Of a stretch of 64,000 nt of DNA, positions 28,391 through 45,322 are shown in pieces. How positions within the stretch are numbered: position 1 is the stretch's first letter; each line of letters starts with the position of its first letter. Below the pieces are notes generated by a model. It made no database searches. It was given only the letters and a program-made list of their open reading frames with translations, and was not told where the DNA came from. The stretch comes from an uncultured Prevotellaceae bacterium (lineage in GTDB: Bacteria > Bacteroidota > Bacteroidia > Bacteroidales > Muribaculaceae). The stretch is from the NCBI GenBank assembly GCA_900318335.1, contig ONKF01000008.1:62001-126000 (forward strand), read 5' to 3'. Position numbers and translations under genes: made by a program.

Positions 28391-28444
28391 ATCTTTTTTA
28401 ATCTATTTTTGCAGTCTAAAAACCTAAAAACCAAGGACTAACAT

Positions 28445-29863
28445 CTAAAGCTTCTTAATGGAATTCACTTTCAGATGGCTGTCCCACTTGTCATAGAACA
28501 GGTTGCCCTTGCGCCACTCGACCTCGCCAGGCTGGAAATCGACCGTCTCGCTGCGGATGTAGGTCTTGGCGGGGCTGAGCTTGTCGCCCACACCCTCGTT
28601 GCTGGCCATGCGGTAGACATCGATTCCAGTTGCATAGTAGTCGTTGAGCGGGGTACCCACGGCACTGCGGCCGAACGACGGGTCGGTGGGAATCCAGCCG
28701 ATGCCCTCAAAGTAGGTCTCGCACCAGTCATGCCAATTGATTTCGTCAGGATGCAGCATCCAGCCACTCTCCCAGCGTGCAGGAATACCCAGCGAGCGCA
28801 CCAGCGTGATGTAGAGCAGTCCGACCTGGCCACAGTCGCCATGATGGTTCTCGATGACATACTGCGGGATGTTGGCCAGCGTGCTGTATTCACGGGCGCC
28901 AGCCCACGGCAGGTTGTAGCCTATCCACTCATAGACCTTGGCGGCCTGCAGAACGGGATTGGTCTCGTTGCCCACAATCTTGCGGGCCAGAGCGCGTATC
29001 TCGTCGGTGATGATGACATGGCGCGGCTCGTCGCCCGTATAGCGCTTGTATTCCTCGCTATCGGTGTTATAAGGCTCCAGCATGGCGATAAGGTCCTGCT
29101 GGCTATAATGGCGCTCGCCCACGTCATAGGAGAAGGTGTATTCAAAGTGAGTCGGCTTGCCTTTCTCGGCAACTGCCTCCATGTAGACCGTGTGGTGCAG
29201 GCTTCCCTCGCTGAAGGTCACAGGGCGGTTGCTGCTCTCGAGGCGGATGTTCTTCTGACGCAGGTTCTCGTAGGGGAACGGCATCCACACGCGCAGGGTC
29301 TCGCCAGCGGGTACAGCATCGGCATTCACATCGAGGGTGAAAGTGATGTTGACACGGCGCCAGTCACGCACGTTGTTCTTGTCGGCAGGAGTCTGCATCG
29401 CCTCCAGGTAGTACTTGCGGCGGGTGAGGAAACTCTCGTGGTTGTCGGCGGCATTCTGGGCGGCAAATTCCTTGCCCAGGAGCCACAGGTTGCCCACGCT
29501 CTTGCGGAACCACATCTCCTTGCCGTCGATGTTCATCACCTCGAGGGCTCGAGTATCCTTCCAGTGCTGGATTTGGGCATCGGTGGCCTCGGGCATCTTT
29601 TCGCGTATCATTTTCACACCCTCCTCGGGGGTGATGCGGAAATCGGTGCGGATGCGCTGCATGATGGTGCGCAACGAGTCGATGCGCACGGCATCGGCCA
29701 CACGGACCTTCTTGGGCAATGATTTCATCACCTTCTCGGCACGGGCGAACTCCCCTTGAGCAATCAGTTCATCGACCTGGGCCTGCCAATCGGGCGTCAC
29801 GGCCATGCCACTTAGTGCCAAGGCACTCAGTGCCAGTGCCAAAAATCGTCTCTTGACCTTCAT
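28445..29863 (-). CDS. transglutaminase-like exported protein
   Basis: A 472-residue protein with a signal peptide (MKVKRRFLALALSALALSGMA). The C-terminal half is a transglutaminase core: Cys in HHGDCGQVGLLYITLVRSLG, His in INWHDWCETYFEG and Asp in WIPTDPSFG. The N-terminal half is a helical and then beta-sandwich region specific to this family. In Bacteroidales loci with NlpC/P60 and dipeptide epimerase genes it is thought to take part in murein-peptide processing. It is first in this minus-strand operon (54 bp before the NlpC gene). Confidence 0.9.
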   Translation of the reverse strand: MKVKRRFLALALSALALSGMAVTPDWQAQVDELIAQGEFARAEKVMKSLPKKVRVADAVRIDSLRTIMQRIRTDFRITPEEGVKMIREKMPEATDAQIQHWKDTRALEVMNIDGKEMWFRKSVGNLWLLGKEFAAQNAADNHESFLTRRKYYLEAMQTPADKNNVRDWRRVNITFTLDVNADAVPAGETLRVWMPFPYENLRQKNIRLESSNRPVTFSEGSLHHTVYMEAVAEKGKPTHFEYTFSYDVGERHYSQQDLIAMLEPYNTDSEEYKRYTGDEPRHVIITDEIRALARKIVGNETNPVLQAAKVYEWIGYNLPWAGAREYSTLANIPQYVIENHHGDCGQVGLLYITLVRSLGIPARWESGWMLHPDEINWHDWCETYFEGIGWIPTDPSFGRSAVGTPLNDYYATGIDVYRMASNEGVGDKLSPAKTYIRSETVDFQPGEVEWRKGNLFYDKWDSHLKVNSIKKL

Positions 29864-29963
29864 TTTACCTTAGATTTTGATTTAACGAGCAAATTTACAG
29901 CAATTATTTGTAAACCTCTACATACAGTTCTAAATAGTTATTAACAAGGCGCAGATTTACCCA

Positions 29964-30839
29964 TCAGCGGGGGAACTCGAGCAGGAAGGTGGTGTGGAAG
30001 CCGTCACGGGGATTGTCGAGAAGCGACATCATGCCTCCCTGGATGGTGAGCAGGCGGCGGCTCAGCGACAGGCCGATGCCGTTGCCCTTGCGCTTGGTGG
30101 TGAAGAAGGGGATGAAAATCGACGAACGGGCGTCGGCAGGAATCAAGTCACCATCGTTGCTGTAATAGAGCTTTACCCTACCCTCCAGACCTTGACCGGG
30201 CAAGACGGTAATACCGATATTGCGGGCATTGGCCTCAATGGCGTTCTTGGCGAGATTGATAAGTATCTGGCGCAACAGGTTGGGGTCGGTCTTGATAATC
30301 ACGTTTTCAACGAGATTGTTATGCCATGTCACATTTTGGAACAGCTGCTCCACATCATTGATGACCGACGCGAGGTCCACATCCTGAGGCACAGGTTTCT
30401 GCAGTTCCGAGTACTTGCGGTAACCGTCAACAAATGAGTTGAGGTGCTGCACCGTGTTGTGGATGGCCTGGATGCCCTCTTCCATATCAGACCCTTTCAC
30501 TGCGGGGCTATTGAGCATCGACTGGCTGATGCTGGCGATAGGTGCCGTGGCATTCATAATCTCGTGGGTGAGCACGCGGGTGAGTTTCTCCCACGATTCC
30601 ACCTCACCCAGGTTGACCTGTTCACGGACGTGTTCACCGAGCTGGTTGAGCGCCTCTTGCAGAGCGCGCTCACCGCTGAACATGTGCCGTGTGGGCAGGC
30701 GGAAGGTGAAGTCCCTGTTGTGGATGGCATCCTGCATCAGGTGAGCCCGATTGGCGAGCATGCGCTGATGACGCCAGAACCACAACACCAGTATCACCAC
30801 AACGATCCCGAGGATCCACCATGCCGTCATGTCGTTCAT
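29964..30839 (-). CDS. sensor histidine kinase, NtrB/AtoS-like, single membrane helix
   Basis: A 291-residue kinase with one N-terminal membrane helix (about 7-24) and almost no periplasmic part. The H box LTHEIMNATAPI holds His92. The N box is NLAKNAIEAN and the G boxes end in FFTTKRKGNGIGLSLSRRLL. There is no PAS or HAMP domain, so the signal probably comes through the membrane or a partner protein. Its start overlaps the response-regulator stop by 4 bp (ATGA), so both are co-translated from the 31.4-kb promoter region. Confidence 0.93.
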   Translation of the reverse strand: MNDMTAWWILGIVVVILVLWFWRHQRMLANRAHLMQDAIHNRDFTFRLPTRHMFSGERALQEALNQLGEHVREQVNLGEVESWEKLTRVLTHEIMNATAPIASISQSMLNSPAVKGSDMEEGIQAIHNTVQHLNSFVDGYRKYSELQKPVPQDVDLASVINDVEQLFQNVTWHNNLVENVIIKTDPNLLRQILINLAKNAIEANARNIGITVLPGQGLEGRVKLYYSNDGDLIPADARSSIFIPFFTTKRKGNGIGLSLSRRLLTIQGGMMSLLDNPRDGFHTTFLLEFPR

Positions 30840-31363
30840 TGCAATTTCTTCATCTTGTTATACAAGGTCTGGCGTGTGATGCCAAGGACCTCGGCAGCCT
30901 TTGAAAGATTACCGTGGAAACGGTCGATAGCGCGGCGGATGTGCTCGGCTTCAACCTCATCGAGCGTGGCGACCTCGTCGGCGGCATCAAGCACATCCTT
31001 CAACTTGCGCACCAGCTCGTCGTTGTCCCAGGGCTTGGTGATAAAGTCGGCAGCACCGCGCTTCAGGCCGCGAACGGCCAGGGAAACGTCGGCATAGGCC
31101 GTAATCAGCACCACAGGAATCTCGGGATGATGCTTGCGGATGGCCTGAAGCCACAACAAGCCGTCCTGACCGCTGTTCACCCCCAGGGTGAAGTTCATGT
31201 CCAGCAGGATAATGTCCACCTCTTCCTGTCCCAAGAGCGACAGGACCGAATCGGGCGACGAGAGTGTCATCACCCGCTCAAACGTACCTCCAAGGCAATA
31301 CTTTAACGCAGTGAGTATCGCCTCGTTATCATCAATAACAAGTATAGTTCCGTAATTCTGCAT
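30836..31363 (-). CDS. response regulator, receiver plus Fis-type HTH without AAA+ domain
   Basis: A 175-residue regulator. The receiver spans about 1-125 with acidic pocket IDDNEA, phospho-acceptor Asp55 in IILLDMNF, threonine in LITAY and lysine in ITKPW. A short linker leads to a Fis-type HTH (about 138-175: HIRRAIDRFHGNLSKAAEVLGITRQTLYNKMKKL), like that of NtrC. The sigma-54 AAA+ ATPase domain normally between them is absent and there is no frameshift to hide it, as in ActR/RegA-type regulators. It probably binds palindromes as a dimer; tandem TGT-N11-ACA boxes lie 100 bp upstream of its own start. Confidence 0.93.
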   Translation of the reverse strand: MQNYGTILVIDDNEAILTALKYCLGGTFERVMTLSSPDSVLSLLGQEEVDIILLDMNFTLGVNSGQDGLLWLQAIRKHHPEIPVVLITAYADVSLAVRGLKRGAADFITKPWDNDELVRKLKDVLDAADEVATLDEVEAEHIRRAIDRFHGNLSKAAEVLGITRQTLYNKMKKLQ

Positions 31364-31463
31364 AACGGCAGCGAAGTTACATATTTTTATTGGAATGGGG
31401 CCATGTTCATTCCACTTTTTTTGAATCGTTTTTATTTCTTTTTGTTCAGGTATTGGCGGTAAT

Positions 31464-31503
31464 TGTAAAATTATTAGACAATACTGTGTATAAAATTTTT
31501 ACA
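31464..31503 (+). promoter_or_regulatory. regulatory site A: tandem TGT-N11-ACA boxes
   Basis: Box 1 is 31464-31480 (TGT, AAAATTATTAG, ACA) and box 2 is 31487-31503 (TGT, ATAAAATTTTT, ACA); the start-to-start distance is 23 bp. Exactly 49 bp separate box 2 from TAAATTTG at 31553-31560. The site lies 100 bp upstream of the response-regulator/kinase operon, which reads the other way. Confidence 0.7.
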
Positions 31504-31552
31504 TTCTGCATTTTTTGAAGAAAAATATTTGACAGCAATCTGCAGATGATTC

Positions 31553-31560
31553 TAAATTTG
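31553..31560 (+). promoter_or_regulatory. -7 element downstream of regulatory site A
   Basis: TAAATTTG fits TAnnTTTG, with TTG at 31529-31531 at 21-bp spacing. It would drive transcription toward the LRR-dockerin gene at 32099. Confidence 0.6.
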
Positions 31561-32098
31561 TGCCAGGGAAAGAAATCCCGACATGTTGATAAAAACGTAA
31601 TTAGACTTTCAGCTCCTTGAGCTGGCCATGGCGACAGGTCACACCGCCACGGTAGGACAAAGCCAGGAACCGGGGCTTCATTTCATGACAGTTACAGGAT
31701 GAATGCTCAACAATAAGGTAATGGTAGTTATTAAGGTAATATGGGACGATTAAAATGCAAAGAGAGTCAATGAACAACAAGCGCCACGGTTCCTGGCAAT
31801 GTCCATTCTAAAACTGAAATGAAAAGTTTCATATCACATAATGAATTGGTTAATAAAAATATTGAAGTTTACGTGTCTATTACTTATCTCTAAAAACACA
31901 TGACGAGCCGCGACTAAACGGAAACACACATCGACGAAGCTGCCTTGCAAAAGGAAACCTACTGAAGCAAAGCCGGGAAAGAAGTTCTGACATATTTGAT
32001 AAAACATTTGTTCATCAGTCAGAGACCTTTCTCGGCTATGCACATTCAATTGGCACAAGTTGAAAAGATTATATTGAACATTATAAAATATTATGATT

Positions 32099-33652
32099 AT
32101 GAAGAAATTACAATTACTATTCACCTTGTTGTTGCCCTTGCTTATTACGGGCAACGCTAACGCCATGAGCCACTTCGATGTCGGGCTCTATTACCTCGAT
32201 AGTTACATGTGGGGGAAAGTGGTGCCAGTAACCGTATCAGCCCACTTTGATGCCCGCGTGCAGTCGTGGCAACTGGACGTCAGTTTACCCGAGGGTTTAA
32301 CCATCGTGGATTATTCCGCGGGAAGTGACATGTATGTGCACTACACCGACCAATGGGGCGATTTTGATCGTGATTGCCTTGCATCTCTCGAGAGGCAGGG
32401 AGACACCTTTATCGGCACTTGTCCTGAAGTGGAAGGCTACTGGATTCCCGAGAACAGCAGGAGCAACTATTATGACTACGAGAGCTACGGCAACATCAAG
32501 TGGGAAGCAGGGGACTACTCTGAAATGATGACGCTCAGAATTGCTGTCAGCGAGGATTTTCATGGAGGAATGATGGAGATTACCACAACGACATGGGCCA
32601 CTGAGGACGCTCGAGGTGGCACAGTCATTGAAAACGGAGAACACGGACAACCTTACGTAGAGAATAAGGAAATCCCGTTTGCATACCTGGAAGCCCTTCC
32701 ACCCATCATCGAAACCGAACAAACAGCAAGTGGCGACTTACTCGTCACTGTCACTGCATCCGAAGGTTTATCACTCCATGTTTTTGCCTACAATGGTGAC
32801 GGATTGATCCATGAAAACAATACTATAGGGATGGACCAATTCGTGATCTATCGCACAATGAGCGATCAAGAAATCACTATTCACGCAGAGGCCAGCGACC
32901 AATTCCTGATGCCAAGTGCAACCGAATTCACCTATTGGTTGGATGGTTTCGATGGGGATCCCAGTTTTGAGAAAGATGGCATTTACTACAAGTACACATC
33001 ACCAGGCGAGGTGAAAGTCACTTGGGCTGGTGAAAGCCGGAACCATTACACTGGGCAGGTGGATATTCCCTCGACAGTCACCCACGACGGTCAGAACTAT
33101 CGTGTAACCGCAATCGGGGTGTTTGCTTTCAACGAATGTGATGAACTGACAGGCGTCACCATCCCTGAGTCTGTTACGACTATCGAGACGCTTGCATTTG
33201 TCGGCTGTTTCAATTTGACTCACATCACTCTGCCCGCGTCTCTCACGGCCATCCACAGGGAAGCATTCGATGCTTGCTATAATTTAAAAAGCGTAACTAC
33301 ACTTGCTTTGACAGCACCAACCATCCATAAGTCTTCCTTTAACTGTCCATGGGCCGACGATGAAACGAGGGACGATGCCATTCACAGGTTTGCCACCCTC
33401 TATGTGCCTCGCCAGTCACTGGAAGGCTATAGTGCCGACCCCGAGTGGCGCAAGTTTGAGCACATCCAGGCCATTGATAAATCCGGGGATGTGGATGGAG
33501 ACGGCAAGGTGAGCATCACCGACTCCACTTCGCTCATCGACATTTTGCTGGGCGGTGAACAGCTACCAGAATATGCCGACGTAAACGGTGACGGCAGAAT
33601 CACCATCATCGACATCACTACACTCATCGACCTCCTCTTGAGTAACGATTAA
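32099..33652 (+). CDS. secreted BspA-type leucine-rich-repeat protein with dockerin repeats
   Basis: A 517-residue protein with signal peptide (MKKLQLLFTLLLPLLITGNANA); a start two codons earlier (32093) is possible. The N-terminal region resembles a cohesin-like or beta-sandwich fold (VVPVTVSAHFDARVQSWQLDVSLPEGLTIV). This is followed by a chitobiase-like Ig module. About three BspA-type LRRs (IGVFAFNECDELTGVTIPESV, IETLAFVGCFNLTHITLPAS) come before the end. Residues 463-517 are two dockerin repeats (GDVDGDGKVSITDSTSLIDIL and DVNGDGRITIIDITTLIDLL). BspA LRRs often mediate surface binding. It lies downstream of site A. Confidence 0.87.
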   Translation: MKKLQLLFTLLLPLLITGNANAMSHFDVGLYYLDSYMWGKVVPVTVSAHFDARVQSWQLDVSLPEGLTIVDYSAGSDMYVHYTDQWGDFDRDCLASLERQGDTFIGTCPEVEGYWIPENSRSNYYDYESYGNIKWEAGDYSEMMTLRIAVSEDFHGGMMEITTTTWATEDARGGTVIENGEHGQPYVENKEIPFAYLEALPPIIETEQTASGDLLVTVTASEGLSLHVFAYNGDGLIHENNTIGMDQFVIYRTMSDQEITIHAEASDQFLMPSATEFTYWLDGFDGDPSFEKDGIYYKYTSPGEVKVTWAGESRNHYTGQVDIPSTVTHDGQNYRVTAIGVFAFNECDELTGVTIPESVTTIETLAFVGCFNLTHITLPASLTAIHREAFDACYNLKSVTTLALTAPTIHKSSFNCPWADDETRDDAIHRFATLYVPRQSLEGYSADPEWRKFEHIQAIDKSGDVDGDGKVSITDSTSLIDILLGGEQLPEYADVNGDGRITIIDITTLIDLLLSND

Positions 33653-33684
33653 ACGCCGTATTTCAAGAATATAGTTCGTGAGCA

Positions 33685-33714
33685 ATGGGCTGCACCTGTA
33701 CAGGCGCAGCCCAT
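33685..33714. terminator. terminator between convergent dockerin genes
   Basis: Stem ATGGGCTGC/GCAGCCCAT extended by CCTGT/ACAGG, with an A-C mismatch, followed by TATTGT. It lies between the stop at 33652 and the stop at 33765 of the convergent gene. Confidence 0.7.
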
Positions 33715-33764
33715 TATTGTCGATAGCAGTATTATTTTGATTGCACTAAGAGGAAAGGATGCCC

Positions 33765-35174
33765 TCAAGCGCCCGCTCCTGCGAGCAGCATGTCGATCAA
33801 GGCAGTAATGTCGGCAATATTGACCGCACCATCGTGGTTGACATCGGCGATTGCGGGGTCAATCTGGTCAATTGTCCCATTCAACAGATAATCAATCATC
33901 GCGGTGATGTCGGTGATGGTGACTTTGCCATCGCCGTCCAGGTCGCCCTGCACGACGGGGGCTTCACTATGAATGACGAACTGGGTGCCATCGGTGTAAT
34001 ATAGCTGGCTGTTGTCATAATAGACATCGGCCATCTTGTTGACCGAGCAAGGAATCGTCGTCCCCCATGAGATGACATCGGGGGTGATGGTCCCCACGTT
34101 ACCCGGAACCAATACCTGGTCTTCTTCCACCGAGCAGTTGAAGTAGAACACATCTATCGGACTATCATACATGAACTTGTGGGACGTGCTATCGATAAAC
34201 ATGGCCTGGACAGGAATCTCGATAGCGTTGCCGGGTTTCTGTGAGATGTGATTGGCTACCAGACTGCGGCCATAGAGGTTAAATACGCTGATGGTGCCAT
34301 CCTCTCCTTGCTCGATATACACTGGCACGGTGTCGTTGGTCACCGTTGAGCGACCGGCTCCCTTGACGGGAGAACGGTGCAGTCCAGAAAGCAGGGATGC
34401 GTCACTACCTCCTGCCGACTTCAAGGCCGACCGGATTGTGCTCGCCTCAACGGGCCACTGGGTGAAAGGCATGTTAAGCGTCCCGCCAGTGCCCAACGGA
34501 TACTGGACATCACTCAGGTCAGGCAGGGGTGATGACTCGGCAAAGGGGGCATCGCTCGTGGCTTTGGTCTGGAACACATGCTGACCATTGGGGTTGGCCA
34601 TGCGGACGTTTCTGAACAATGGCGTGAAACGCCAGGTCGAATCCTTCTTCACCAGTTCATCGTCAACATATTCATTGACCGTCTCACAAACGCCGATACA
34701 GAAATCATCATAGAACACCAACGTCCCGTGCCCATCCGATTCGGCCCAAATGGCATCCCATTAGGGTCTCTCACCATTCTTCAGCCAACGCTCGCTGACC
34801 ACAATAGCCGACCGGATTGTGTCGACACGGATATTCCCTGTGGTCAACGAGAACACTTCATAATCCATGATATATTGTGTATCAAAGTAGAACATGTACC
34901 ATGGGTCAATGAACATTGGCATTTCAAAACGCTCAAATATATTCATCACGCCGCCATTCACTTCGACCTGCCAGCCCATCATGGTGGCCTCATCACTGAT
35001 AATCACGGTATCATCCTCCCAAACAAAGTCGTGGGCTTCAAAGATGCCAATCCTGGTTCCAAGCACATCGGGTATCTTCCTTGACTCAGGAACCTGATTG
35101 GGTGCCGCATTCACGACAGAATGGGCCGCAAGGCCCATTCCTATAAGTAGTAAAAACATCAATACATTTTTCAT
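33765..35174 (-). pseudogene. dockerin-family gene interrupted by one in-frame TAA
   Basis: One frame of 470 codons is cut by a single TAA at 34761-34763. The upstream part (137 codons, signal peptide MKNVLMFLLLIGMGLAAHS) ends SERWLKNGERP. The frame continues after the stop as WDAIWAESDGHGTLVFYDDF and on to the end without a shift. The second part has the family motifs ANPNGQHVF and VFNLYGRSL and two full dockerin repeats near the C-terminus. The total length equals its paralogues, so this is a recent nonsense mutation, an assembly error, or a read-through gene. It follows the gene at 35193 by 18 bp and is probably co-transcribed. Confidence 0.85.
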
Positions 35175-35192
35175 ATTATTTCATTTCATAGT

Positions 35193-36011
35193 TTATTCAG
35201 CCTTACTTGTCAGCTGGTTCATCAGGGCCGTCACGTCTTCGATATCCACCTTGCCATCATGGTTCACATCACCCTCTTGATAGTTCTGTGCGGGGATGAC
35301 CACCTCAAACGTTACCCAATCGCTCAACTGCTTGCCATCCTGCTGGGCTGCAGCATGAACGGTCATCGTCTGATCCTTGATACCGCGTTGCACGGTGAAC
35401 GGATAGCCAAGCAACTGGCCACTGTCATCGAGAAACATCACCTCATCATCGGTCGTGCCCGTCGTGACTGTAACAGCAAGGTCACTCACCCGAATGACGA
35501 CCACAGGGGGCGCGCTCTTCTCATCGATGACTTCGGACGAGCCAGTCACCTGACCCGAACTGCCGGTCATAGCGGTTTGAGGGCTGAACTTGGGTGTTAA
35601 CGGACCGTCATTATCGTCTACATCAACATCATCCCTGCCCGGCTTAATAGGTCGCGGGTCTTTTGGAGGGCGAATTGCACCGCCGTGGCCTGTGGGCTCA
35701 TAGGTTTTACCCCCTTCAACCGTCGGGTTCACTCTGCCTCCATTCCCCTGCAACTGATGATTCAGGGAAACATATTGTGTTCCATTATCGTCATTTGTGT
35801 TCGATACAGTGGCGTTAATGTCATTCTCACCAGCCTCTTTGTTAACTGTCTGATCAATACCTCCCACCATAACAGTCCTCTTAACATTGTTATCGTCTTG
35901 AGACGAGCTGTAGGAGTCCGCGGTGGACAACGACTCGGGCGGCAGCACTCCTGCCATGGCAGACAGCGCCACGCTTCCGCCCAGGAGAATCAATAATACA
36001 ATCTTTTTCAT
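35193..36011 (-). CDS. secreted protein with Ig-like module and a single dockerin repeat
   Basis: A 272-residue protein with signal peptide (MKKIVLLILLGGSVALSAMAG). A low-complexity Asn/Asp/Gly-rich region leads to the linker GHGGAIRPPKDPRPIKPG, which also occurs in the paralogues at 36279 and 45323. An Ig/chitobiase-like module follows (VVVIRVSDLAVTVTTG to WVTFEVVIPA). It ends in only one dockerin repeat (GDVNHDGKVDIEDVTALMNQL). The large PNG/NLFG core of the family is absent, so it looks like a shortened member or a partner subunit. It is first of a two-gene minus-strand unit below site B. Confidence 0.8.
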   Translation of the reverse strand: MKKIVLLILLGGSVALSAMAGVLPPESLSTADSYSSSQDDNNVKRTVMVGGIDQTVNKEAGENDINATVSNTNDDNGTQYVSLNHQLQGNGGRVNPTVEGGKTYEPTGHGGAIRPPKDPRPIKPGRDDVDVDDNDGPLTPKFSPQTAMTGSSGQVTGSSEVIDEKSAPPVVVIRVSDLAVTVTTGTTDDEVMFLDDSGQLLGYPFTVQRGIKDQTMTVHAAAQQDGKQLSDWVTFEVVIPAQNYQEGDVNHDGKVDIEDVTALMNQLTSKAE

Positions 36012-36081
36012 AATACTGCTGCGTTTTAGTTAATAAAAATATATAATACTCTAAATCTGGAACGATCGATTTTCCAGGTTA

Positions 36082-36112
36082 CAAATCTACAAATACCCAA
36101 ACCATTTTCCAA
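36082..36112 (-). promoter_or_regulatory. promoter of the dockerin genes at 36011-33765
   Basis: Minus strand TTG (36110-36112), 20 bp, TAGATTTG (36082-36089), about 70 bp before the ATG at 36011. The -7 element is exactly 70 bp from box B. Confidence 0.65.
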
Positions 36113-36151
36113 GAATTTCGACCACTTTTATCAACTTTTTATTACTTTTTT

Positions 36152-36184
36152 CCAAAAAGTGTAAAAATTTTAGACACTTTTGCT
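36152..36184 (-). promoter_or_regulatory. regulatory site B: extended TGT-N11-ACA palindrome
   Basis: A 27-bp palindrome AAAAGTGT-N11-ACACTTTT has its TGT at 36160-36162 and ACA at 36174-36176. It matches box 1 of site C at nearly every position. There is no second box at 23 bp. It is 70 bp upstream of the -7 element at 36082-36089. Confidence 0.65.
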
Positions 36185-36196
36185 TCTTTTTGTGAT

Positions 36197-36237
36197 ATCG
36201 GGTGGGCTGCACCCGACACAGGAACAGCCCACCCGAT
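36197..36237 (-). terminator. hairpin after the dockerin gene at 36279
   Basis: A 13-bp stem ATCGGGTGGGCTG/CAGCCCACCCGAT below the stop codon at 36279. The U run is poor, so efficiency is uncertain. Confidence 0.6.
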
Positions 36238-36278
36238 GTTAATTTCATTCTCAATTTCCAAGCAATGACAGTTCAGCA

Positions 36279-37958
36279 TCAATCGGCCTCACCATCGAGC
36301 AGCATGTCGAGCAAGGTCGTCACATCCTTGATGGTGACCTTACCGTCGAGGTTGACGTCACCCACCTTGAACTGGCGGGCGGGGACAAGCACCTCGAGCG
36401 TCACCCAGTCACTGGGCAACATGCCCTCTTGCTGGGCCGATGCCATCACTACTACAATCTGGTCCAGGGGTCCACGCTCCACCATGTAGGGGTTATCGAC
36501 CTCCTGGCCATCGTCGGTCATGATAATAATCGCATTCTGGTCGGCCGCTGCTGTAATTATGACAGCATCGTCGGTCACCTCGGCTGTAATAACGGGAGGA
36601 TCACATTTTTCAAACATGAACGCACTTCCATCATTGTAATACAATCTATTGTTACTGTAAAGCGTATGAGACCCAGCATTAGAGCCACTCTCATAAGTAG
36701 TGGTAGCTTCCCACACTATTGTATCCATCGTGATAGTGCCAATATTTCCTGGTTCTAATTGGCCATCGACCAGCGTGCAATTATAAGTTACCGATTCCAC
36801 AGAGCTGCCATGATCAATTACTTGGCATGGGAAAACCATTGTACCATCAGGATAAATGTTCATGTAATTCTCGGTCATGCTTCGACCGAACAGGTTATAG
36901 ACAGCCACGGTCGAATCATTCAACTGATACATGTAAACTGGCGAATTTAACGTATCAGGCTCCCCATGGTTCTCCCAAGATTTTGACTGACCCAGCCAGG
37001 GGGCGGTTCCATTTGGAATCCGCTTGGGTTTAACGGTTCCTGGCTTTATCGGCCGGGGATCTACCGGCCTGCCGATAACCCCTCCCAAACCCAAAATTGT
37101 TGACCAACTGCCAGAGCAGTTCCAACCCTGGTATATAGCAGTAGATGAGATTATAAAATCATCAAGAGATACAGAAGAGTCTATTATATGTCTCTCAAAC
37201 TCATGAGTGCCATTAGGAACCAACATCAACATATCATGAATGACAGGCGAAACAATAAAGGCGGTGTCACTTGAAATGAGATGGCGGCTTAAGGCATCAT
37301 ATTCAGATATCACTTCAGAAATGATATATACAAAACTTCCTTGAAACTCCACAGAGCCGTCATTATAGACAGTGCCCACATTGGTATCAACCACTTCACC
37401 GCCAAGGAATTCGTTCCAATCCATGACGCAGGCGATGGTCAAAGTGTCAAACTGGAAAGTGCCTATCTGCTTGCTCACTTCATTCTGATAAAAGGTACCA
37501 TAATACATTGTGGCTTCCTGACTCTCGAGATCAACATCAATGGGCATATCAAAATGGCAATATGCATTCTCGAGCCACAGGTACCCACCTTCAGGATCCT
37601 CTGTTTCAACCATGTTTGATTCCCAACCCACATAGTACGGGTCTCCAACCAACAAAAATTCCTGATCAAAATCCCTACACTTCAGTGACGTGATCCTGAT
37701 ACCAGCCATCTCATCCATCGACAGGCGTTGTGGCGCCTTCTTGGCCAACGGGTTATCACCTGGTGTGAGGCCACGTTCGCGCATCAGCCGTTGCAGCGAC
37801 GAGGACGACTTGACGGTATTGGCTGGCAGCTGGCTCATCACCGCATGCCCCTTGTGCGACCAGCCAGTATGCTGCACACGGCTTGCTGCCGATGAGCCAG
37901 CGGCCATCGTCAGCGCCATACCAGCACACAGAAACATCAAAAACAACAATTTCTTCAT
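36279..37958 (-). CDS. secreted dockerin-type protein, Muribaculaceae-type family
   Basis: A 559-residue protein with signal peptide (MKKLLFLMFLCAGMALTMAAG). The core has the family motifs VPNGTHEF and VAVYNLFGRSM. Between them lies the proline-rich segment GVIGRPVDPRPIKPG shared with two paralogues. It ends in an Ig/chitobiase-like module (PPVITAEVTDDAVIITAAADQN) and a single dockerin repeat (GDVNLDGKVTIKDVTTLLDML), not a pair. GC and codon use are lower than in neighbouring housekeeping genes. Its promoter lies beneath site C, which it shares with the divergent ABC-transporter side. Confidence 0.85.
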   Translation of the reverse strand: MKKLLFLMFLCAGMALTMAAGSSAASRVQHTGWSHKGHAVMSQLPANTVKSSSSLQRLMRERGLTPGDNPLAKKAPQRLSMDEMAGIRITSLKCRDFDQEFLLVGDPYYVGWESNMVETEDPEGGYLWLENAYCHFDMPIDVDLESQEATMYYGTFYQNEVSKQIGTFQFDTLTIACVMDWNEFLGGEVVDTNVGTVYNDGSVEFQGSFVYIISEVISEYDALSRHLISSDTAFIVSPVIHDMLMLVPNGTHEFERHIIDSSVSLDDFIISSTAIYQGWNCSGSWSTILGLGGVIGRPVDPRPIKPGTVKPKRIPNGTAPWLGQSKSWENHGEPDTLNSPVYMYQLNDSTVAVYNLFGRSMTENYMNIYPDGTMVFPCQVIDHGSSVESVTYNCTLVDGQLEPGNIGTITMDTIVWEATTTYESGSNAGSHTLYSNNRLYYNDGSAFMFEKCDPPVITAEVTDDAVIITAAADQNAIIIMTDDGQEVDNPYMVERGPLDQIVVVMASAQQEGMLPSDWVTLEVLVPARQFKVGDVNLDGKVTIKDVTTLLDMLLDGEAD

Positions 37959-37987
37959 CGTTTACAGTTTATGGTTTTTATTGAACA

Positions 37988-38019
37988 CAAAAATACGACA
38001 GTTTATTCTAACTCGGCAA
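37988..38019 (-). promoter_or_regulatory. promoter of the dockerin gene at 37958
   Basis: Minus strand TTG (38017-38019), 21 bp, TATTTTTG (37988-37995). The -7 box is exactly 70 bp from box 1 of site C. Confidence 0.65.
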
Positions 38020-38065
38020 TAATCTGAACCTCATTTCCACTTTTTCGCCTCACATAACCAAAAAG

Positions 38066-38105
38066 TGTAAAAAAATTAGACACTTTTGTGTGTAAAATTT
38101 TTACA
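38066..38105. promoter_or_regulatory. regulatory site C: tandem TGT-N11-ACA boxes between divergent units
   Basis: Box 1 is 38066-38082 (extended AAAAGTGT-N11-ACACTTTT) and box 2 is 38089-38105 (TGT, GTAAAATTTTT, ACA), 23 bp apart. On the plus side box 2 ends 49 bp before TATCTTTG (38155-38162). On the minus side box 1 is 70 bp from TATTTTTG (37988-37995). It can control both directions. Confidence 0.72.
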
Positions 38106-38154
38106 TTCTCGACTTTTATGGCCCAAGATGGGCACATGACTATCCTTGACTCAT

Positions 38155-38162
38155 TATCTTTG
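38155..38162 (+). promoter_or_regulatory. -7 element downstream of regulatory site C
   Basis: TATCTTTG fits TAnnTTTG and lies 64 bp before the small ORF at 38226. No clear -33 TTG is seen, which is common at activator-dependent promoters. Confidence 0.6.
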
Positions 38163-38225
38163 CAGTGATGGGATTGCTCCCGTTAACCGAATAAAACTAA
38201 TAACAACCAATAAAAGTATAAGATT

Positions 38226-38315
38226 ATGAAACAGCAAGCTTTTCTCTTTTCGTTGACAGTCATCGCCATCATCGTCTTTACGTGTCTGTGTTCTATGCTG
38301 AGCTTCGGTTTCTGA
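38226..38315 (+). CDS. 29-residue hydrophobic small protein (putative)
   Basis: A short ORF (MKQQAFLFSLTVIAIIVFTC then LCSMLSFGF) that starts with two polar/basic residues and continues as one membrane helix with two cysteines. It sits 64 bp downstream of the -7 element of site C and 370 bp before the ABC-transporter permease gene. It has an AT-rich leader (AATAAAAGTATAAGATT) as usual for this phylum. It may be a small membrane peptide, a transporter partner or a leader peptide. No homologue is recognised, and expression is inferred only from position. Confidence 0.5.
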   Translation: MKQQAFLFSLTVIAIIVFTCLCSMLSFGF

Positions 38316-38687
38316 GTTTGCACTCATGCCTGTAGACGGAACGAGCGAGAGAATGTGTCTTAACTCTCGTCTATTATTATATCCGTGCTGCGCTCGGAGA
38401 ACCTTTAGCTCGGCGAAGCCAAATTAAGCAAAAATTCGTATAAAAATTAAACATAATAAACTTTTATTTTAATTTTATTTATAATTTTGCTTAACTTCTC
38501 GGCCACCAAGCCGGTTAAAAATCCAGAGGCATATTTTGACTCACAATCCGACCAAGCATTCACCATGGATTGAATGGTGGTCCAACCGTCTTTTCCTCCT
38601 CCCCATAGCGGCAATGATGCAATATAGTCGCGTCATTTCACGTTAATAATTATTAAGAAAAAGCATTACCCGACACGTATCCCAATC
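38316..38687. other. intergenic region upstream of the ABC permease gene
   Basis: An AT-rich stretch with no coding frame. It has a -7-like TAATTTTG at 38482-38489 without a clear -33 box, and a weak inverted repeat around GAGCGAGAG/CTCTCG near 38343-38370. I see nothing else. Confidence 0.4.
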
Positions 38688-41084
38688 ATGAGCGAGATAC
38701 TCAACAATATCGTCAGCATGGCGCGGCGCTTCAAGACAGCGACGGCACTCAATTTGATAGGTCTGGTTCTGGCATTTGTCACCTTTTACATGATTATGAC
38801 CCAGATTATCTACCAGAGTACATTCAACCATGCAATCCACGATTACCAGCGCATCTATCGTCTGGAATGCAGCTATCTCATACCCGAATTGGGATTCAGT
38901 GACCACTTGTGCCGGCCATTTGCCGAAGCGCTGGACAGTCTGCCGCAAGTGGAGTCCTACTCGTTGATCAGCAACTACACAAACGCCTACATGTTCAAGA
39001 AAGGTGACATTCTCATGCCGTTTGATGTCACTTATGGTAATGACCAGGCAATCAGCGCCATATCGGGAGAGCCACTCAGCGGCAGCATCGAGTGGACTCC
39101 CGAAGACAAAGATGGTTACATTATCCCTGCCGGAATAGCCATGGCCTACTTTGGCACCACTCAAGCGGCAGGCGACTCCATTATCCTGGTTTACGCTGGT
39201 GAGGATTATCCGGTCCTGGTTCGCGGCGTATATCAGGATTTTCCAGACAATAGCGAGTTTGGTAACTACATTTACATGAATAATGGTAACCAGGATAAAA
39301 GTGAACTGAATTTCATTTATCAGTGCTATATCAAGTTCAAGACTCCACTTGAAGATCCTGATGCCTATTGCGCAACAATCAAGGATGCCGTTGTCAAGAC
39401 AATCAATCAGGACACAACCTTAGCCCATAAAAACAATGAGCATGACCTGAGGATTATAAAACAATGTGTTCAAGAAACCAATTTCAAGCTTACTCCCTTG
39501 AAGAAGAGTTTCTTTGAGGAATCAAGTTTTTCCTCAACTCCCAAGGGTTTCTCATGGATGCTCTACTTCCTCATCCTTGCCAGTATCCTGGTTATTGTCA
39601 TCGGCACCATCAATTTCCTGAATTGCGCACTGGTCGAGAGTCCCATGAGGGTGAGAAGCATCAACACCCGGTTGGTACTGGGAGCGGCAAGATCACAGCT
39701 GCGCCTGCAACTGATCGGCGAATCGGTCATCACATCGGTTGCCTCGTGTCTTGTGGCACTGGTGCTCTGCCAGTTAATAACGCGACTGCCATCAATACAC
39801 AATCTGCTCAATGGCTCCATCTCATTGAGCGATCACAAGGTGCTCACGGCTGCCATGATTGCCATATCGATCGTGTTGGGCCTCATAGCCGGATGGTACC
39901 CGGCCAAATTCGCGACCTCATTCCAGCCCGCTATCGCGCTCAAGACATCGTTTGGGCTCACGCGACAGGGCATCAAGTTGCGCAACATTCTGCTCTTCTT
40001 CCAACTCCTGGTGTCCATGATTATGGTCATGTACATCAGCATCCTGTTCACTCAGAGCCGATATATTTTCAACTCCGATTACGGCTTCGACAAGGATCAG
40101 ATTATCATGGCCGAATTGCCTGCCGATTTGGATACGCGCAACAAGAAACAGATTTATCAGGAATTGGTCAACTTGCCCCAGGTCGAGGGTGTCTCATTCT
40201 CCAACAGCGGCATGGCTCTGGACGACATACAAGATCTTGTGAGGACCGACATCAATGGTGAACCTTTCATGTTTCGCAAATTGCACGTCGATTCCAGTTA
40301 CCTGCGGGTGATGGGCATCGAGATGGTTGAGGGCCGCTCTTCCAACCAGTCCGGTTCCACTGCCATGATTGTGAATGAGAATGCCCGCGACAAGATGAAA
40401 ATAGGCACTAAATTCTCGATTGATATCGGTGCTCAATTAGGGGACAGTATATCGGTGATCGGCTATTGCAACAATTTCAGATACGGCACCATGCGCACAA
40501 AACAGGATTCGCCGTTTGCCATCGTAGTCGACAACAATTCTGCTTTAAACTATTTGAACATACGCATAGCAGCCGACGCCAATCGCAGCGAGCTCTTGAA
40601 GCAAATCAGTGAGATCATAATCAAGCACACCGATTCAGATACTTCAAATCTGACACCCTTTGACGAATCCTTGTACGAGACCTATCAATATGAGATGCTC
40701 TACTTCAGGCAATCCTATACGACCTCATTTGTTTGCATTCTGCTCACCCTGTTCGGACTTTTCTGCTTGACGATGTTTGAGACCGAATACAGGCGCAAGG
40801 AAATCGGCATCCGCAAGGTGGCTGGTGCCACAACAGGAGAAATCATCAAGATGCTGAACAAGCACTATGCTGTGCTTATCCTCATCAGTTTTGCCATCGC
40901 ATTGCCCATCGCATGGATGCTTGGCAGGACCACTCTTAACCATTTTGCCGAGCACGCGACCATCAGCTGGTGGATTTATCCGTTAGGCCTGCTGTTGGGA
41001 GGTGGTGTCACGCTGGCTACGGTAATGCTGCAGAGCTGGCGCGCAGCCCGGGAGAATCCCGTCAACAGCATCAAGACCGAATAA
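38688..41084 (+). CDS. ABC transporter permease, FtsX/MacB-type
   Basis: A 798-residue inner-membrane protein with the layout of Bacteroidetes FtsX-like permeases. It has a first helix (about 20-42), a periplasmic MacB-PCD-type domain (about 45-285), three helices (about 290-400), then a second half-unit with helix near 435, a second periplasmic domain and three C-terminal helices (about 680-790). The sequence RRKEIGIRKVAGATTGEIIKML is the typical cytoplasmic loop. Such permeases couple ATPase motion to extrusion of peptides, lipoproteins or antibiotics. No MFP (HlyD-like) or TolC gene is next to it. It is followed 23 bp later by its ATPase gene. Confidence 0.93.
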   Translation: MSEILNNIVSMARRFKTATALNLIGLVLAFVTFYMIMTQIIYQSTFNHAIHDYQRIYRLECSYLIPELGFSDHLCRPFAEALDSLPQVESYSLISNYTNAYMFKKGDILMPFDVTYGNDQAISAISGEPLSGSIEWTPEDKDGYIIPAGIAMAYFGTTQAAGDSIILVYAGEDYPVLVRGVYQDFPDNSEFGNYIYMNNGNQDKSELNFIYQCYIKFKTPLEDPDAYCATIKDAVVKTINQDTTLAHKNNEHDLRIIKQCVQETNFKLTPLKKSFFEESSFSSTPKGFSWMLYFLILASILVIVIGTINFLNCALVESPMRVRSINTRLVLGAARSQLRLQLIGESVITSVASCLVALVLCQLITRLPSIHNLLNGSISLSDHKVLTAAMIAISIVLGLIAGWYPAKFATSFQPAIALKTSFGLTRQGIKLRNILLFFQLLVSMIMVMYISILFTQSRYIFNSDYGFDKDQIIMAELPADLDTRNKKQIYQELVNLPQVEGVSFSNSGMALDDIQDLVRTDINGEPFMFRKLHVDSSYLRVMGIEMVEGRSSNQSGSTAMIVNENARDKMKIGTKFSIDIGAQLGDSISVIGYCNNFRYGTMRTKQDSPFAIVVDNNSALNYLNIRIAADANRSELLKQISEIIIKHTDSDTSNLTPFDESLYETYQYEMLYFRQSYTTSFVCILLTLFGLFCLTMFETEYRRKEIGIRKVAGATTGEIIKMLNKHYAVLILISFAIALPIAWMLGRTTLNHFAEHATISWWIYPLGLLLGGGVTLATVMLQSWRAARENPVNSIKTE

Positions 41085-41107
41085 AAACCGACTAAAAACA
41101 AGAGACT

Positions 41108-41782
41108 ATGATACAGGTCAGAGACTTAAAGAAAGTATTCCGTTTCAAGGAGGGTTATACAGTTGCCCTGGGTGGCATCAACCTGGATGTCGAGCAGGGG
41201 GAATTTGTCGCTATCATGGGACCCTCGGGCTGTGGCAAGACCACATTGCTCAACATCCTGGGCCTGCTCGACAATCCCAGCGAGGGCAATTACCTGCTGG
41301 CAGGGATGGAGGTGGCCCACCTCAAGGAGAGCCAGCGCACCGCCCTGCGCAAGGGACGCATCGGCTTCATCTTCCAGAGCTTTAACCTCATCGACGAGCT
41401 CACGGTCGAGCAGAATGTGGAACTGCCGCTCAAGTACCTGGGATACTCGGCAAGCGAGCGGGCCAAGGAGGTGGCCAACGCCCTGCGGCGCATGAACATC
41501 TCTCACCGCGCCAAGCACTACCCTAACCAGCTGTCGGGCGGACAGCAGCAGCGCGTAGCCATCGCCCGCGCTGTCGTGTGCAAGCCCGAACTCATCCTCG
41601 CCGATGAGCCCACGGGCAATCTCGACTCCAAGAACGGCAAAGAAGTGATGGAACTGCTTGCCGGCCTCAACGACGATGGCACGACGATTATCATGGTCAC
41701 ACACAGCCAGCGCGATGCATCCTACGCCCACCGCATCGTCAACATGCTCGACGGCTTCCTCGTCGAGAGAACCCAACTCTGA
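41108..41782 (+). CDS. ABC transporter ATP-binding protein, LolD/MacB-type
   Basis: A 224-residue ATPase that powers the FtsX-type permease encoded just upstream. Walker A is GPSGCGKT (38-45), the signature [14 protein letters not shown] is near residue 140, and Walker B is [14 protein letters not shown] content is markedly higher than in the flanking genes. The pair resembles mechanotransmission exporters (LolCDE, MacB). The substrate is unknown. A terminator follows at once, so the unit ends here. Confidence 0.95.
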
Positions 41783-41812
41783 CCCCCCTTTATCAGCATA
41801 TCATCAATACAC

Positions 41813-41840
41813 AAGCATTGCAATCTTGCAATGCTTTTTT
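41813..41840 (+). terminator. terminator of the ABC-transporter unit
   Basis: A perfect 11-bp stem AAGCATTGCAA/TTGCAATGCTT with a 2-nt turn, followed by TTTTTT. Confidence 0.85.
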
Positions 41841-41856
41841 CGCACATTGAGGATGT

Positions 41857-41896
41857 TGTAAAAAAAATAGACAGAACAGTGTAAAATATTTTTACA
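41857..41896 (+). promoter_or_regulatory. regulatory site D: tandem TGT-N11-ACA boxes
   Basis: Box 1 is 41857-41873 (TGT, AAAAAAAATAG, ACA) and box 2 is 41880-41896 (TGT, AAAATATTTTT, ACA), 23 bp apart. Box 2 ends exactly 49 bp before TAACTTCG (41946-41953), a -7-like element with one mismatch. It lies upstream of the subtilase gene. Confidence 0.7.
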
Positions 41897-41945
41897 CAGT
41901 TGAAAAAAGACGCAAAATATTGATGCACACATTATTTATCGAGCC

Positions 41946-41953
41946 TAACTTCG
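41946..41953 (+). promoter_or_regulatory. -7-like element of the subtilase gene
   Basis: TAACTTCG differs from TAnnTTTG by one base. The same variant occurs on the minus strand at 31372-31379 before the response-regulator gene. It is 31-43 bp before the possible ATGs. Confidence 0.5.
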
Positions 41954-41984
41954 CATCAAACAATAATTAATAATTAACCATTAA

Positions 41985-44900
41985 ATGAGTCACATTATGA
42001 AAAAAGTAATTGTCTTTGGCTTGATAGCTGTGCTATTTAGCATCAGCGCTATTGCAAATGTTAATCAGAAACTATCTGGTACAACACAACTGTTTATTGC
42101 CGAAAGGGATGGCCGCATTTCTCTCGATATGAAAATTGATGGCCCCACTTTACCAACACGTGCGCCATTACGACGCGCTCATCAGGTGGAGCGCGTGATA
42201 GCCCCGGCCCGAGTCGTTAATGGCGTCAAGATGGTGTCAGCCTTTATACACGTCGATCCCAATGAAACTGCTCAAATTGAAAATATGGGTGTTATCATTC
42301 AAGAGCGTTTCAAGAAATTTGTGGTTGCTATGATTCCTGTTGACAAGATCGAGAGCGTTGCCCAGATTGCGGCAGTTAATCAAGTGAACGTAGCCCGCAA
42401 GGCGAGTGTACACACCGATATGTCCCGTTTCTACACCAAAACGCTTCAAGTTTTGGATGAAAGCAATGCCATTGCCTCTGGGCTACCCTGTGCATTCACC
42501 GGTAAGGGAATCGTGGTTGGCGTGATTGACACAGGCATTGATTTTCAACATGCGATGTTCATGGACGCCGACGGCAACTCACGCATCAAGCAAGCATATA
42601 TTGCTGATGATTATGGTTTATTTGAATCCTATACAAGCGAGATGATACCTTCGCTGACAACAGATTACGCTGAGAACTCACATGGCACACACACGGCTAC
42701 GATCGCTGCTGGATCTAATCTCACTTTTAATGGCATCACCTATGGTGGTATGGCACCCGATGCAGATATCGTACTTGTTGGTTTAGGCGAAGAATTATAT
42801 ACTACAAATATCGCTATGGGCATCAAATATGTTTTTGAATATGCCGACAGTCATGATATGCCTGCTGTATGTAGCATTAGCTTGGGTGGTATGTGGGGAC
42901 CACATGATGGTACCGGTGAGATGAATGAGGTGTTCGCCGAATATGCAGGCGATAACCCTAACCACATTTTGGTGATGTCGGCAGGCAATTACGCAAGTTA
43001 CTCACCTGGTGTGGGATATGTGTATGTCGAGGGGGAGGCATCGCCAGAATCTCCTTTCTGTACCGTAATTAATGGTACATACAATGCTACAACTGCTCTA
43101 GACATCAATAATTATTATGTGGGATACGAGTGTTTCTATAACCGCACACCTGGGCAACAAATGGCTTGCAAGCTGCATGTCGTGAACACCCGAGCTAATC
43201 AGATACTCTGGACTTCTGATGAAATCACTGAGTTCACCATCGATGATTTCTCGGGCATCAACGAATATTTCACTGGCCTTCCCGAAGTATATGTCTATGA
43301 AGATGATTTCAGCGGCAAGTATAATGTAATAGTCTATACTGAGGGCATGGCAAAGAAGAGTGGTTACACAAACCCAAAATATGCGCTTGCTATAAGCATC
43401 TATCCTGTCGAGGGAGGCCCTTGCATGATCGACGGATGGGAAGGATATGGTTACAATCTGTTTGCAAACTATAATGGCACAATCGATGATTATGTGTTTA
43501 TTTCCGGGTCTGACGATTGCTGTATTAATGATCATGTAGCCGACGATGATGTGATTTCTGTTGGGGCTTATGTTTCCAAAAACATATATACAGATGTTGA
43601 TGGCAACACTCTAAATTACAGCTCTTATTTTACCGTCAATGATATCGCATATTTCTCCTCCTATCAAACCTTTGGCCATGGCCCGACAGGCAAAGCAAAG
43701 CCCGACATCTGCGCACCTGGCGCTATCGTCGTTGCTGGTATTAACCGATATGATGCTGAATGGTTTATGGATGCTGATTATAGATATGCTTTAATTTGCG
43801 AAGATACAGACCAACCGTTAGGCTGCATGCAGGGCACATCGATGTCAGCGCCTTGTGTGGCAGGCATTGTCGCGCTGTATTTGCAAGCGGCACAGAGTGT
43901 TGATAAGACGCTAAAAACCGATGACATTCGTGACATTTTTGCTCACTCTGCTATCACCGATCAATATACGGATCAAAGTAACTTTGGAGCCTATGGCAAA
44001 ATTAATGCCTTGGCTGGAATTAAGTACATCTTGGGCTCGGCTGAACCTGTCATCACAACTGATCTGAGTTCCATCACTATTGAACCAACCTATACCGGCT
44101 ATGAGGGTTCTCAAATTATACAAGTCCAAGCAACTAACTTGCAGAGCGATTTACAATTAAGCCTGTCACCTGGGAATAACGGATTTGTTCTATCTAAATC
44201 TACGATTAAACCTGAGCAAGCTGCCGCTGGCGTTCCAGTGACCGTTTACTTCTATCCTACCACTGGGGGAACAAGACAAACTACACTTAAAATCAGGAGT
44301 GATGGAGCCGAAACCGTCAGCATACCCGTAAAAGGGACTGGAATCAAGTCTGATGGTTACATTACTGGCGGGCCCACAAATCTGTCATTTGAGACCCAGG
44401 TTGGCACCACAGTGACCCAAACGTTCAATGTTAAGTATTCATATCCTGATGGCTCTATCATGATCAATAGTGTCGGGGGTGATGGAGAAACAACTCCCAA
44501 TGAAGATGGCGCTATGCTGATGCTCAGTAATGCTACGGATGAGTTTAGCTGGACAAAACCCATCTTCATCCAAGACAGTACTCTCAATGATAATTGTCGC
44601 CGTAAAGATTTCACACCCCCTATTATTCCTTTCTTGGTAAAAAGCCTTGATATGAAGTTGACGGGAGATAACTGTTTTGATGTATCGCCTTCAAGAATCT
44701 TATTGCAGAGCATTCCGTGCAGCAAAACTGTTACTGTTACATATCGTCCTGATTGTGTAGGGGATCATGAAGCAGTATTAACAATCTATCTCATCGGAGG
44801 CAAGGCCAGACCACTCACTATTAAATTACATGGAACAGCCACAGGCCAGCTCAATGCCGTAAACAACAATGACACCCAAAGCCTCATGAACACACCGTCT

Positions 44901-45134: not shown

Positions 45135-45159
45135 CAATAGGTTCTTATATTAATCATTG

Positions 45160-45197
45160 AAGTGAGGGTAAGCTTGGCATCAAGCTTACCCTCACTT
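45160..45197. terminator. terminator after the subtilase gene
   Basis: A perfect 17-bp stem AAGTGAGGGTAAGCTTG and complement with a GCAT loop, followed by TTGCTTT. Confidence 0.85.
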
Positions 45198-45322
45198 TGC
45201 TTTATACAGTTGATTTTCGTACGCAGACGATTAAGTAGGTGTGTAATAACCTCAAAATAAATAATTGCTCATGTGAAATTCTCTTATCACCTGCTACACC
45301 CTTATATGAGAGAAAATGGATT

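Follow-up and report, generated by a model that had tools for sequence, protein, structure and literature searches.

Response regulators (RRs) built from a receiver (REC) domain and a C-terminal helix-turn-helix (HTH), with no AAA+ domain and with a cognate kinase, are known from the RegA/PrrA/ActR/RegR family (PMC5506826). An RR of the same architecture, next to its putative kinase, is encoded in a 64,000-nucleotide stretch of DNA from an uncultured Prevotellaceae bacterium (GenBank assembly GCA_900318335.1, contig ONKF01000008.1, positions 62,001 to 126,000), called the window below. The gene lies beside site A, one of three sites (A, C and D) at which two TGT-N11-ACA boxes stand in tandem upstream of a promoter. 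Unlike these AT-rich, tandem sites with fixed spacing, the binding sites given in PMC5506826 are GC-rich and degenerate when compared by eye, and no clear motif is reported there for the organism of that study. The TGT-N11-ACA sites do not agree with the RegA/PrrA-type binding consensus, and the regulator is thus treated as alike in architecture without being classed as an orthologue of RegA/PrrA.

A second comparison concerns the NtrC family. According to PMC10274813, NtrC-family regulators act at sigma70 promoters in Rhodobacter capsulatus and Caulobacter; these proteins keep the AAA+ domain and are without the GAFTGA loop only, whereas the regulator described here lacks the whole AAA+ domain, and no sigma54 -24/-12 element follows any of 75 operators collected from its genus. 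Sigma54 control of FtsX-like and antimicrobial-peptide ATP-binding cassette (ABC) permeases has been predicted for Bacteroidia (PMC12316311). The AAA+ relatives of our regulator fit this link between sigma54 and FtsX-type ABC transporters, whereas its own branch, devoid of AAA+, has TAnnTTTG instead. The latter string matches the primary-sigma consensus of Bacteroides (-33/-7, TANNTTTGY; PMC12632263); unlike in a plain Bacteroides promoter, the -7 element is here tied to a distal tandem operator at a fixed distance. No earlier description of the motif or regulon was found in the literature searched, most subscription papers lying outside its reach.

Judged from sequence, A, C and D are very probably operators of a single two-component regulon, whose activator without AAA+ would have moved from sigma54 to primary-sigma promoters. 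Operator, spacing, regulator and many targets can all be read from the DNA, which makes regulon membership predictable across Prevotella-like genomes. Few transcription-factor codes are known in such genomes beyond those of nutrient regulators. Moreover, both states survive within one order with recognisable operators, and the change from a sigma54 activator to a primary-sigma activator thereby becomes a testable question.

Tandem operators and their promoters

The box starts, read directly, are 23 bp apart at A, C and D alike, and 49 bases separate box 2 from a -7 element in all three cases, as claimed in an earlier note on this DNA. That box 1 ends in AGACA and box 2 contains AAAA..TTTTT, also claimed there, is correct for A, C and D; as general rules both are ruled out, being mere trends over the 75 genus sites, where position 14 is G in 73 of 75 box 1s and in 55 of 75 box 2s. 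Roughly 100 bp lie between site A and the start of the RR gene, to which promoter A is divergent. The one-mismatch -7 element of promoter D was seen again as TAATTTCG at locus L077, where the first open reading frame (ORF) is of 1051 aa, like the 1049-aa subtilase behind promoter D, and once more at one site of L130.

In the 3.15-Mb genome, TGT-N11-ACA-N6-TGT-N11-ACA has four exact matches, namely A, C and D and one place on another contig (C67:103210), and its reversed version has none. A looser AT-rich pattern with two mismatches returned the same four matches only, and a rescan of the window revealed no tandem sites beyond A, C and D. Matches away from the locus are thus as few as had been anticipated.

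The exact pattern was then looked for in 101 genomes (our own, 60 of the same genus and 40 of the order), 32 of which contain it. The set of 75 sites was obtained by rescanning the regions around AT-rich sites in 19 same-genus genomes, our own included; sites were picked by boxes and A/T content and not by the -7 element, whose orientation was taken from the better match. At every one of the 75, TAnnTTTG with at most one mismatch lies 47–51 bp past box 2 in one orientation (exactly in 66), the distance being 49 bp in 55 sites, 48 in 16, 50 in three and 47 in one. On the opposite side of the boxes such an element is present at 1 of 75 sites. Seven of eight shifted offset windows gave 0–4 of 75, and the eighth (shift -30) gave 23, probably because the -33 TTTG supplies the match. 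Among 1500 AT-matched random 40-mers, an exact -7 element was met in 0.7% and one with at most one mismatch in 4.7% per orientation. The reversed-pattern, opposite-side, shifted-offset and AT-matched controls rule out chance or AT-richness as the source of the geometry and agree with the earlier opinion that it is hard to explain by chance.

Alignment of the 75 sites on the -7 element reveals a T-rich stretch 41–38 bp and an A-rich stretch 30–28 bp before its start, together with a T/G-rich -33 region (T/G enrichment 24–21 bp before the -7 start); positions -14 to -2 carry at most 0.18 bits each. The two parts of a Bacteroidota primary-sigma promoter, a TAnnTTTG -7 element and a T-rich or TTTG -33 element about 20 bp upstream, are both present. 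Box pairs with an exact -7 element at 48–50 bp have a pitch of 23 bp in 65 cases and another pitch in three among the genus loci, the corresponding numbers being 55 and four for the named loci L135–L205. The named Prevotella-like loci hold the 23-bp pitch and the 49-bp spacing, and the pattern is conserved in relatives, an outcome that the earlier note had named as support. In one distant genome of the order, six tandem operator-promoter sites lie within 24 kb beside the regulator (G271:C38:25387-49066).

The response regulator and its proposed kinase

In Pfam, the RR matches Response_reg (80.9 bits) and HTH_8 (61.1 bits, residues 133–174 of 175) and gives no match to Sigma54_activat; it is a REC-Fis protein, in which the receiver is joined to a C-terminal Fis-type HTH with no AAA+ domain between them. 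Residues D11, D12, D55, T88 and K110 are invariant in 19 RR sequences, and we take them to be the acidic pocket, the phosphorylatable Asp, the Thr/Ser and the Lys of the receiver. Proteins of the main AAA+-less clade are 172–186 aa long, except for one 126-aa fragment at a contig end. The kinase gene adjoins that of the RR on the same strand in all 18 other genus loci, and lies within 200 bp of it in 73 of 76 named loci.

An orthologue of the AAA+-less RR is present in 19 of the 61 same-genus genomes, and these are exactly the genomes from which the 75 sites were taken. The RR-less genomes of the genus contain five exact-pattern matches in four genomes (G023, G033, G041 and two in G046), and no -7 element within one mismatch was found in either orientation at the four matches fetched, one per genome. 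Across 295 genomes of the order, an AAA+-less RR at E<1e-80 occurs in three, all with the operator-promoter pattern, and two of the 292 remaining genomes have one pattern match each (G192 and G085). The match in G192 was rejected as a site without a regulator: it adjoins an AAA+ relative of the RR, and its supposed -7 element overlaps a sigma54-like site.

A scan of named genomes yielded at least 80 further RR loci, including those of Prevotella ruminicola, Xylanibacter brevis and Paraprevotella. Among 106 loci, drawn from the genus and from these named loci with duplicates included, 90 have a tandem near the RR gene (at most two mismatches), and in 88 of the 90 the best adjacent candidate is directed away from that gene, both directions having been searched. 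After duplicates were removed and the helix motif required, in a search of the away-from-RR direction only, 78 RR-site pairs remained; their -7 offset is 49 in 72 pairs, 48 in three and 50 in three. In 63 pairs the residue after (T/S)RQTLY is N, the boxes are of TGTCTAA/TGTAAAA types and ATGA half-sites average 0.75 of four; in the other 15, where this residue is A, R, S or K, the boxes are of the TGTATGA type with means of 3.0–3.5 ATGA half-sites of four. Such co-variation supports, without proving, a contact between this region of the RR and the operator.

The operator-binding regulator is most likely the RR beside site A. The earlier proposal of one regulon with a shared operator code is well supported, matches being few away from the locus, kept in relatives and co-occurring with one regulator. 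An improbable alternative is that another factor, for example of the Crp/Fnr type, is encoded elsewhere and binds the boxes, the two-component pair being just a neighbour or a target; TGT..ACA palindromes serve several factor families, and the RR-adjacent promoter is directed away from the RR gene. Against such a factor, however, site presence tracks the RR, the half-sites co-vary with a residue of its recognition helix, and the genes of its AAA+ relatives have these boxes beside them.

Several points weigh against the two-component attribution. The 42 RR-less genomes were judged site-free by the exact pattern only, and one of the two matches in G046 was fetched. The match in G085, assumed to be due to chance, has an exact -7 element and A/T at 12 of 18 core positions, and its 3-kb locus gave no match to the RR; in G315, no pattern match accompanies a short, divergent RR (E=8e-44). 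No RR-adjacent site was detected by the criteria used at 16 of the 106 loci, duplicates included; these take in six genus RRs (L038, L040, L042, L044, L045 and L048), whose genomes have sites elsewhere. The half-site groups largely follow clades, and sites and regulators share ancestry, so that neither the 19-of-19 agreement nor the helix co-variation represents independent events. Finally, a dockerin gene in convergent orientation is the next long ORF at eight of the 11 RR-divergent promoters of the genus that were examined.

AAA+ relatives and the probable sigma54 connection

The nearest proteins outside the AAA+-less clade are AAA+ regulators of 410–466 aa, the shortest of which may be cut by a contig end; these 29 longer relatives carry GAFTDA/GSFTDA-type motifs. 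Next to the genes of 18 of the 29, two such boxes (one mismatch at most) stand in tandem with a pitch of 21–23 bp, mostly 21–22 bp. In 13 of the 18 tandem loci, a sigma54-like site (at most two mismatches of 10) follows box 2, starting 52–56 bp after it in seven loci and 63–65 bp after it in six, that is, at distances about one helical turn apart. Such sites were found on the other side of the tandem in 1 of 18 loci and in 8 of 3600 shuffled sequences, and at none of the 75 AAA+-less genus sites.

In a tree of REC domains, 78 AAA+-less RRs group together as a single clade (100/99) in the midst of AAA+ proteins. The same tree places three further short REC-HTH regulators (L208, L209 and L233) outside this main clade, and these perhaps represent separate losses of AAA+. 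With regard to the promoters, the TTTG of the -24 element TTTGGCAY falls exactly at the place of the AAA+-less -7 TTTG in L224, L227 and L229 (three of seven loci, out of 15) and within 1–2 nt of it in three more of the seven, L212 and L230 being among the close loci. This suggests that the TTTG of a sigma54 -24 element could have been re-used as that of a -7 element. Among the Sigma54_activat matches listed, nearly every genome has one strong protein, the others being weak.

The ancestor was probably an NtrC-type protein with an AAA+ domain that regulated a TolC/HlyD/ABC exporter and activated sigma54 promoters through the same kind of boxes, and the loss of the AAA+ domain would have accompanied the change to TAnnTTTG promoters, although we infer the order of these events. 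It is rather likely, taken as a whole, that the AAA+ motor was lost in one branch of NtrC-type exporter regulators while the tandem operators were kept, that this branch came to activate the primary-sigma polymerase directly in a near-invariant 23-bp/49-bp layout, perhaps re-using the -24 TTTG, and that secreted proteins, small membrane peptides and a regulon-specific structured RNA joined its regulon in this genus.

This origin has its own difficulties. A tandem at 21–23 bp is missing from 11 of the 29 AAA+ loci, and 5 of the 18 tandem AAA+ loci also hold a TAnnTTTG-like string (at most one mismatch, one exact) at 47–51 bp, and at these loci the promoter can thus be read in both ways. In the REC tree, the AAA+-less clade has a long branch (1.14), the root was placed at the midpoint and the basal forks are weak. 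Besides, sigma54 is retained in the genus, rpoN being present in 59 of the 61 genomes, which leaves the loss of sigma54 unsupported as a cause of the switch.

Proposed mode of action

In the proposed mechanism, the histidine kinase would phosphorylate the RR. Dimers of the Fis-type HTH of the RR would occupy the 17-bp TGT-N11-ACA palindromes, two of them abreast at the 23-bp pitch. The dimers may bind cooperatively on one face of the DNA, as the earlier note had suggested; a pitch of 23 bp corresponds to about 2.2 turns, whereas 21–22 bp is the usual value in the AAA+ relatives. If the -7 element is taken by convention as centred at -7, the centre of box 2 lies near -69 and that of box 1 near -92. 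The T-rich and A-rich tracts fall between box 2 and -33, where the C-terminal domains of the RNA polymerase alpha subunits sit in E. coli. The regulator would most likely activate the primary-sigma polymerase by direct contact in the class I style, because the distance from box 2 to the -7 element is near-fixed at 49 bp. In the AAA+ relatives, the two spacing classes would fit enhancer looping. The exporter targets invite the guess that the signal is envelope or peptide stress.

It is very unlikely that the regulator binds the sites and yet acts on the promoters as a repressor or a mere modulator: the position of both boxes, upstream of -33 at a near-fixed spacing, is generally that of an activator, and the AAA+ relatives are found upstream of sigma54-like promoters, which require one. 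That the sites arose as copies of some promoter-bearing element, mobile or repeated, with a geometry due to copying and not to selection, could be suggested by three copies in 10.5 kb here and six in 24 kb in G271, but it is so improbable that it may be set aside, since the sequence between the conserved positions is free (as at -14 to -2) and the spacing is constant across genera.

Genes, RNA and peptides behind the promoters

The features of the locus are listed in Table 1.

Table 1. Operators, promoter elements, genes and RNA features of the locus (positions within the window).
Feature	Position	Strand	Remark
Histidine kinase, HATPase_c	29964-30839	-	Proposed partner of the response regulator
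Response regulator, REC and Fis-type HTH_8, no AAA+, 175 aa	30836-31363	-	Proposed operator-binding activator
Site A, tandem operator of two TGT-N11-ACA boxes	Box 1 31464-31480, box 2 31487-31503	+	Pitch 23
Promoter A, -33 TTTG	31528-31531	+	
Promoter A, -7 element TAAATTTG	31553-31560	+	Family-wide -7 statistics
Leader RNA hairpin, stem GCCAGGAACC/GGTTCCTGGC and outer stem GGAC/GTCC	31651-31807	+	Training sequence of model R1, 79 bits
Possible second, diverged RNA copy	31960-32046	+	Weak R1 match, E=0.093; stem visible
LRR_5 and dockerin protein, the first long ORF behind promoter A	32093-33652	+	532 nt past the -7 element
Site C, tandem operator	Box 1 38066-38082, box 2 38089-38105	+	Read directly
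Promoter C, -7 element TATCTTTG	38155-38162	+	Read directly
Hydrophobic peptide, 29 residues, of a family recurring after these promoters	38226-38315	+	After promoter C
MacB_PCD/FtsX ABC permease	38688-41084	+	After promoter C; Pfam
ABC transporter ATPase	41108-41782	+	Pfam
Site D, tandem operator	Box 1 41857-41873, box 2 41880-41896	+	Read directly
Promoter D, -7 element TAACTTCG, one mismatch	41946-41953	+	Read directly
Subtilase (Peptidase_S8), after promoter D	41985-45134	+	31 nt past the -7 element

Many of the ORFs that follow the sites in named Prevotella-like loci resemble, by eye, TolC, HlyD, ABC ATPases and FtsX-type permeases. For the genus, 85 first or second ORFs were collected and 22 were dropped by eye (antisense-looking frames, later operon genes and near-duplicates); Pfam matches among the remaining 63 include Dockerin_1 (26), LRR_5 (20), Peptidase_C10 (7), ABC_tran (6), Peptidase_M16_C (5), FtsX (4), MacB_PCD (4) and Peptidase_S8 (3). 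What looks like an exporter regulon in the named loci thus seems to have been extended to secreted proteins in this genus. In the scheme proposed above, the extended regulon would take in secreted dockerin and leucine-rich repeat (LRR) proteins, proteases and ABC transporters, along with small membrane peptides and the structured leader RNA.

The leader behind site A folds as a long hairpin common to five other leaders. In the six-leader stem, 94.8% of cells are paired and four pairs are changed on both sides, which was matched by 8 of 500 shuffles. With 16 sequences, 91.4% of cells are paired, 12 of 16 pairs are changed on both sides and none of 500 shuffles reaches this level; most of these sequences were found with the model and are therefore biased to its structure, and slid versions of the stem pair at 31–48%. 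The possible second copy in the window was later included in alignment A5 and is thus not independent.

Model R1, built from the six leaders, was run over the 61 whole genus genomes with strict filters. At E<=0.01 it found 15 distinct places in 10 genomes, all of which have the RR; six of the places are the training sequences. Eight of the nine non-training matches lie 12–253 nt past a predicted -7 element on the same strand, which supports the predicted direction of the promoters. The ninth and weakest, in G025 (E=0.009), is upstream of its site and was set aside. One training copy (G024:C3:185534) lies about 360 nt behind one promoter and ahead of a second. The 14 places detected with model R2 had all been met before and are spread over 9 of the 19 RR genomes; 20 RR-less genomes gave no match. 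Beyond the genus, R2 was applied to 38 loci chosen from the at least 80 named ones and gave four matches at E<=0.1: those in L133 and L154, whose RRs are 84–89% like ours, are strong, the one in L134 is weak, and one in L133 is on the opposite strand. The hairpin is nearly palindromic, and hence some matches occur on both strands.

No known RNA family corresponds to the hairpin at the Rfam gathering level, at which positions 28000-46000 of the window gave no match, and short BLAST searches for other motifs common to the leaders revealed little beyond AATTTTTTCATAA-like stretches. The structured RNA may act as a small RNA or as a leader regulator. A free small RNA made from promoter A is plausible, if unproven, because of the convergent dockerin genes that come next at RR-divergent promoters (L071, L076, L079, L089, L098, L113, L118 and L124).

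Hydrophobic peptides of 27–30 residues, all of one family, begin 38–86 nt past the -7 element at 11 of the 75 promoters, and two that were tested gave no Pfam match. Strong matches to the family (E<=5e-11) occur in 15 of the 61 genus genomes, all with the RR, and in none of the 42 RR-less genomes; 11 of the 15 are the training peptides. The four others are preceded by the tandem, with one mismatch, and by a -7 element, in one case with a mismatch. Weaker relatives were found in eight RR-less genomes (G017, G020, G023, G033, G041, G048, G055 and G057), and the family is therefore wider than the regulon. Together with the hairpin RNA, these peptides of about 29 residues provide new handles on the role of the system.

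Among minor observations, minus-strand ORFs whose ends resemble dockerin repeats lie between and beyond the three promoters of the window (33765-37958 and 45323-46774), and one of three tested has a Pfam dockerin match. The small peptide also follows the RR-divergent promoter of L079. At L068 and L119, another small hydrophobic ORF is located after regulon promoters, upstream of 943-aa ORFs that belong to one BLAST cluster.

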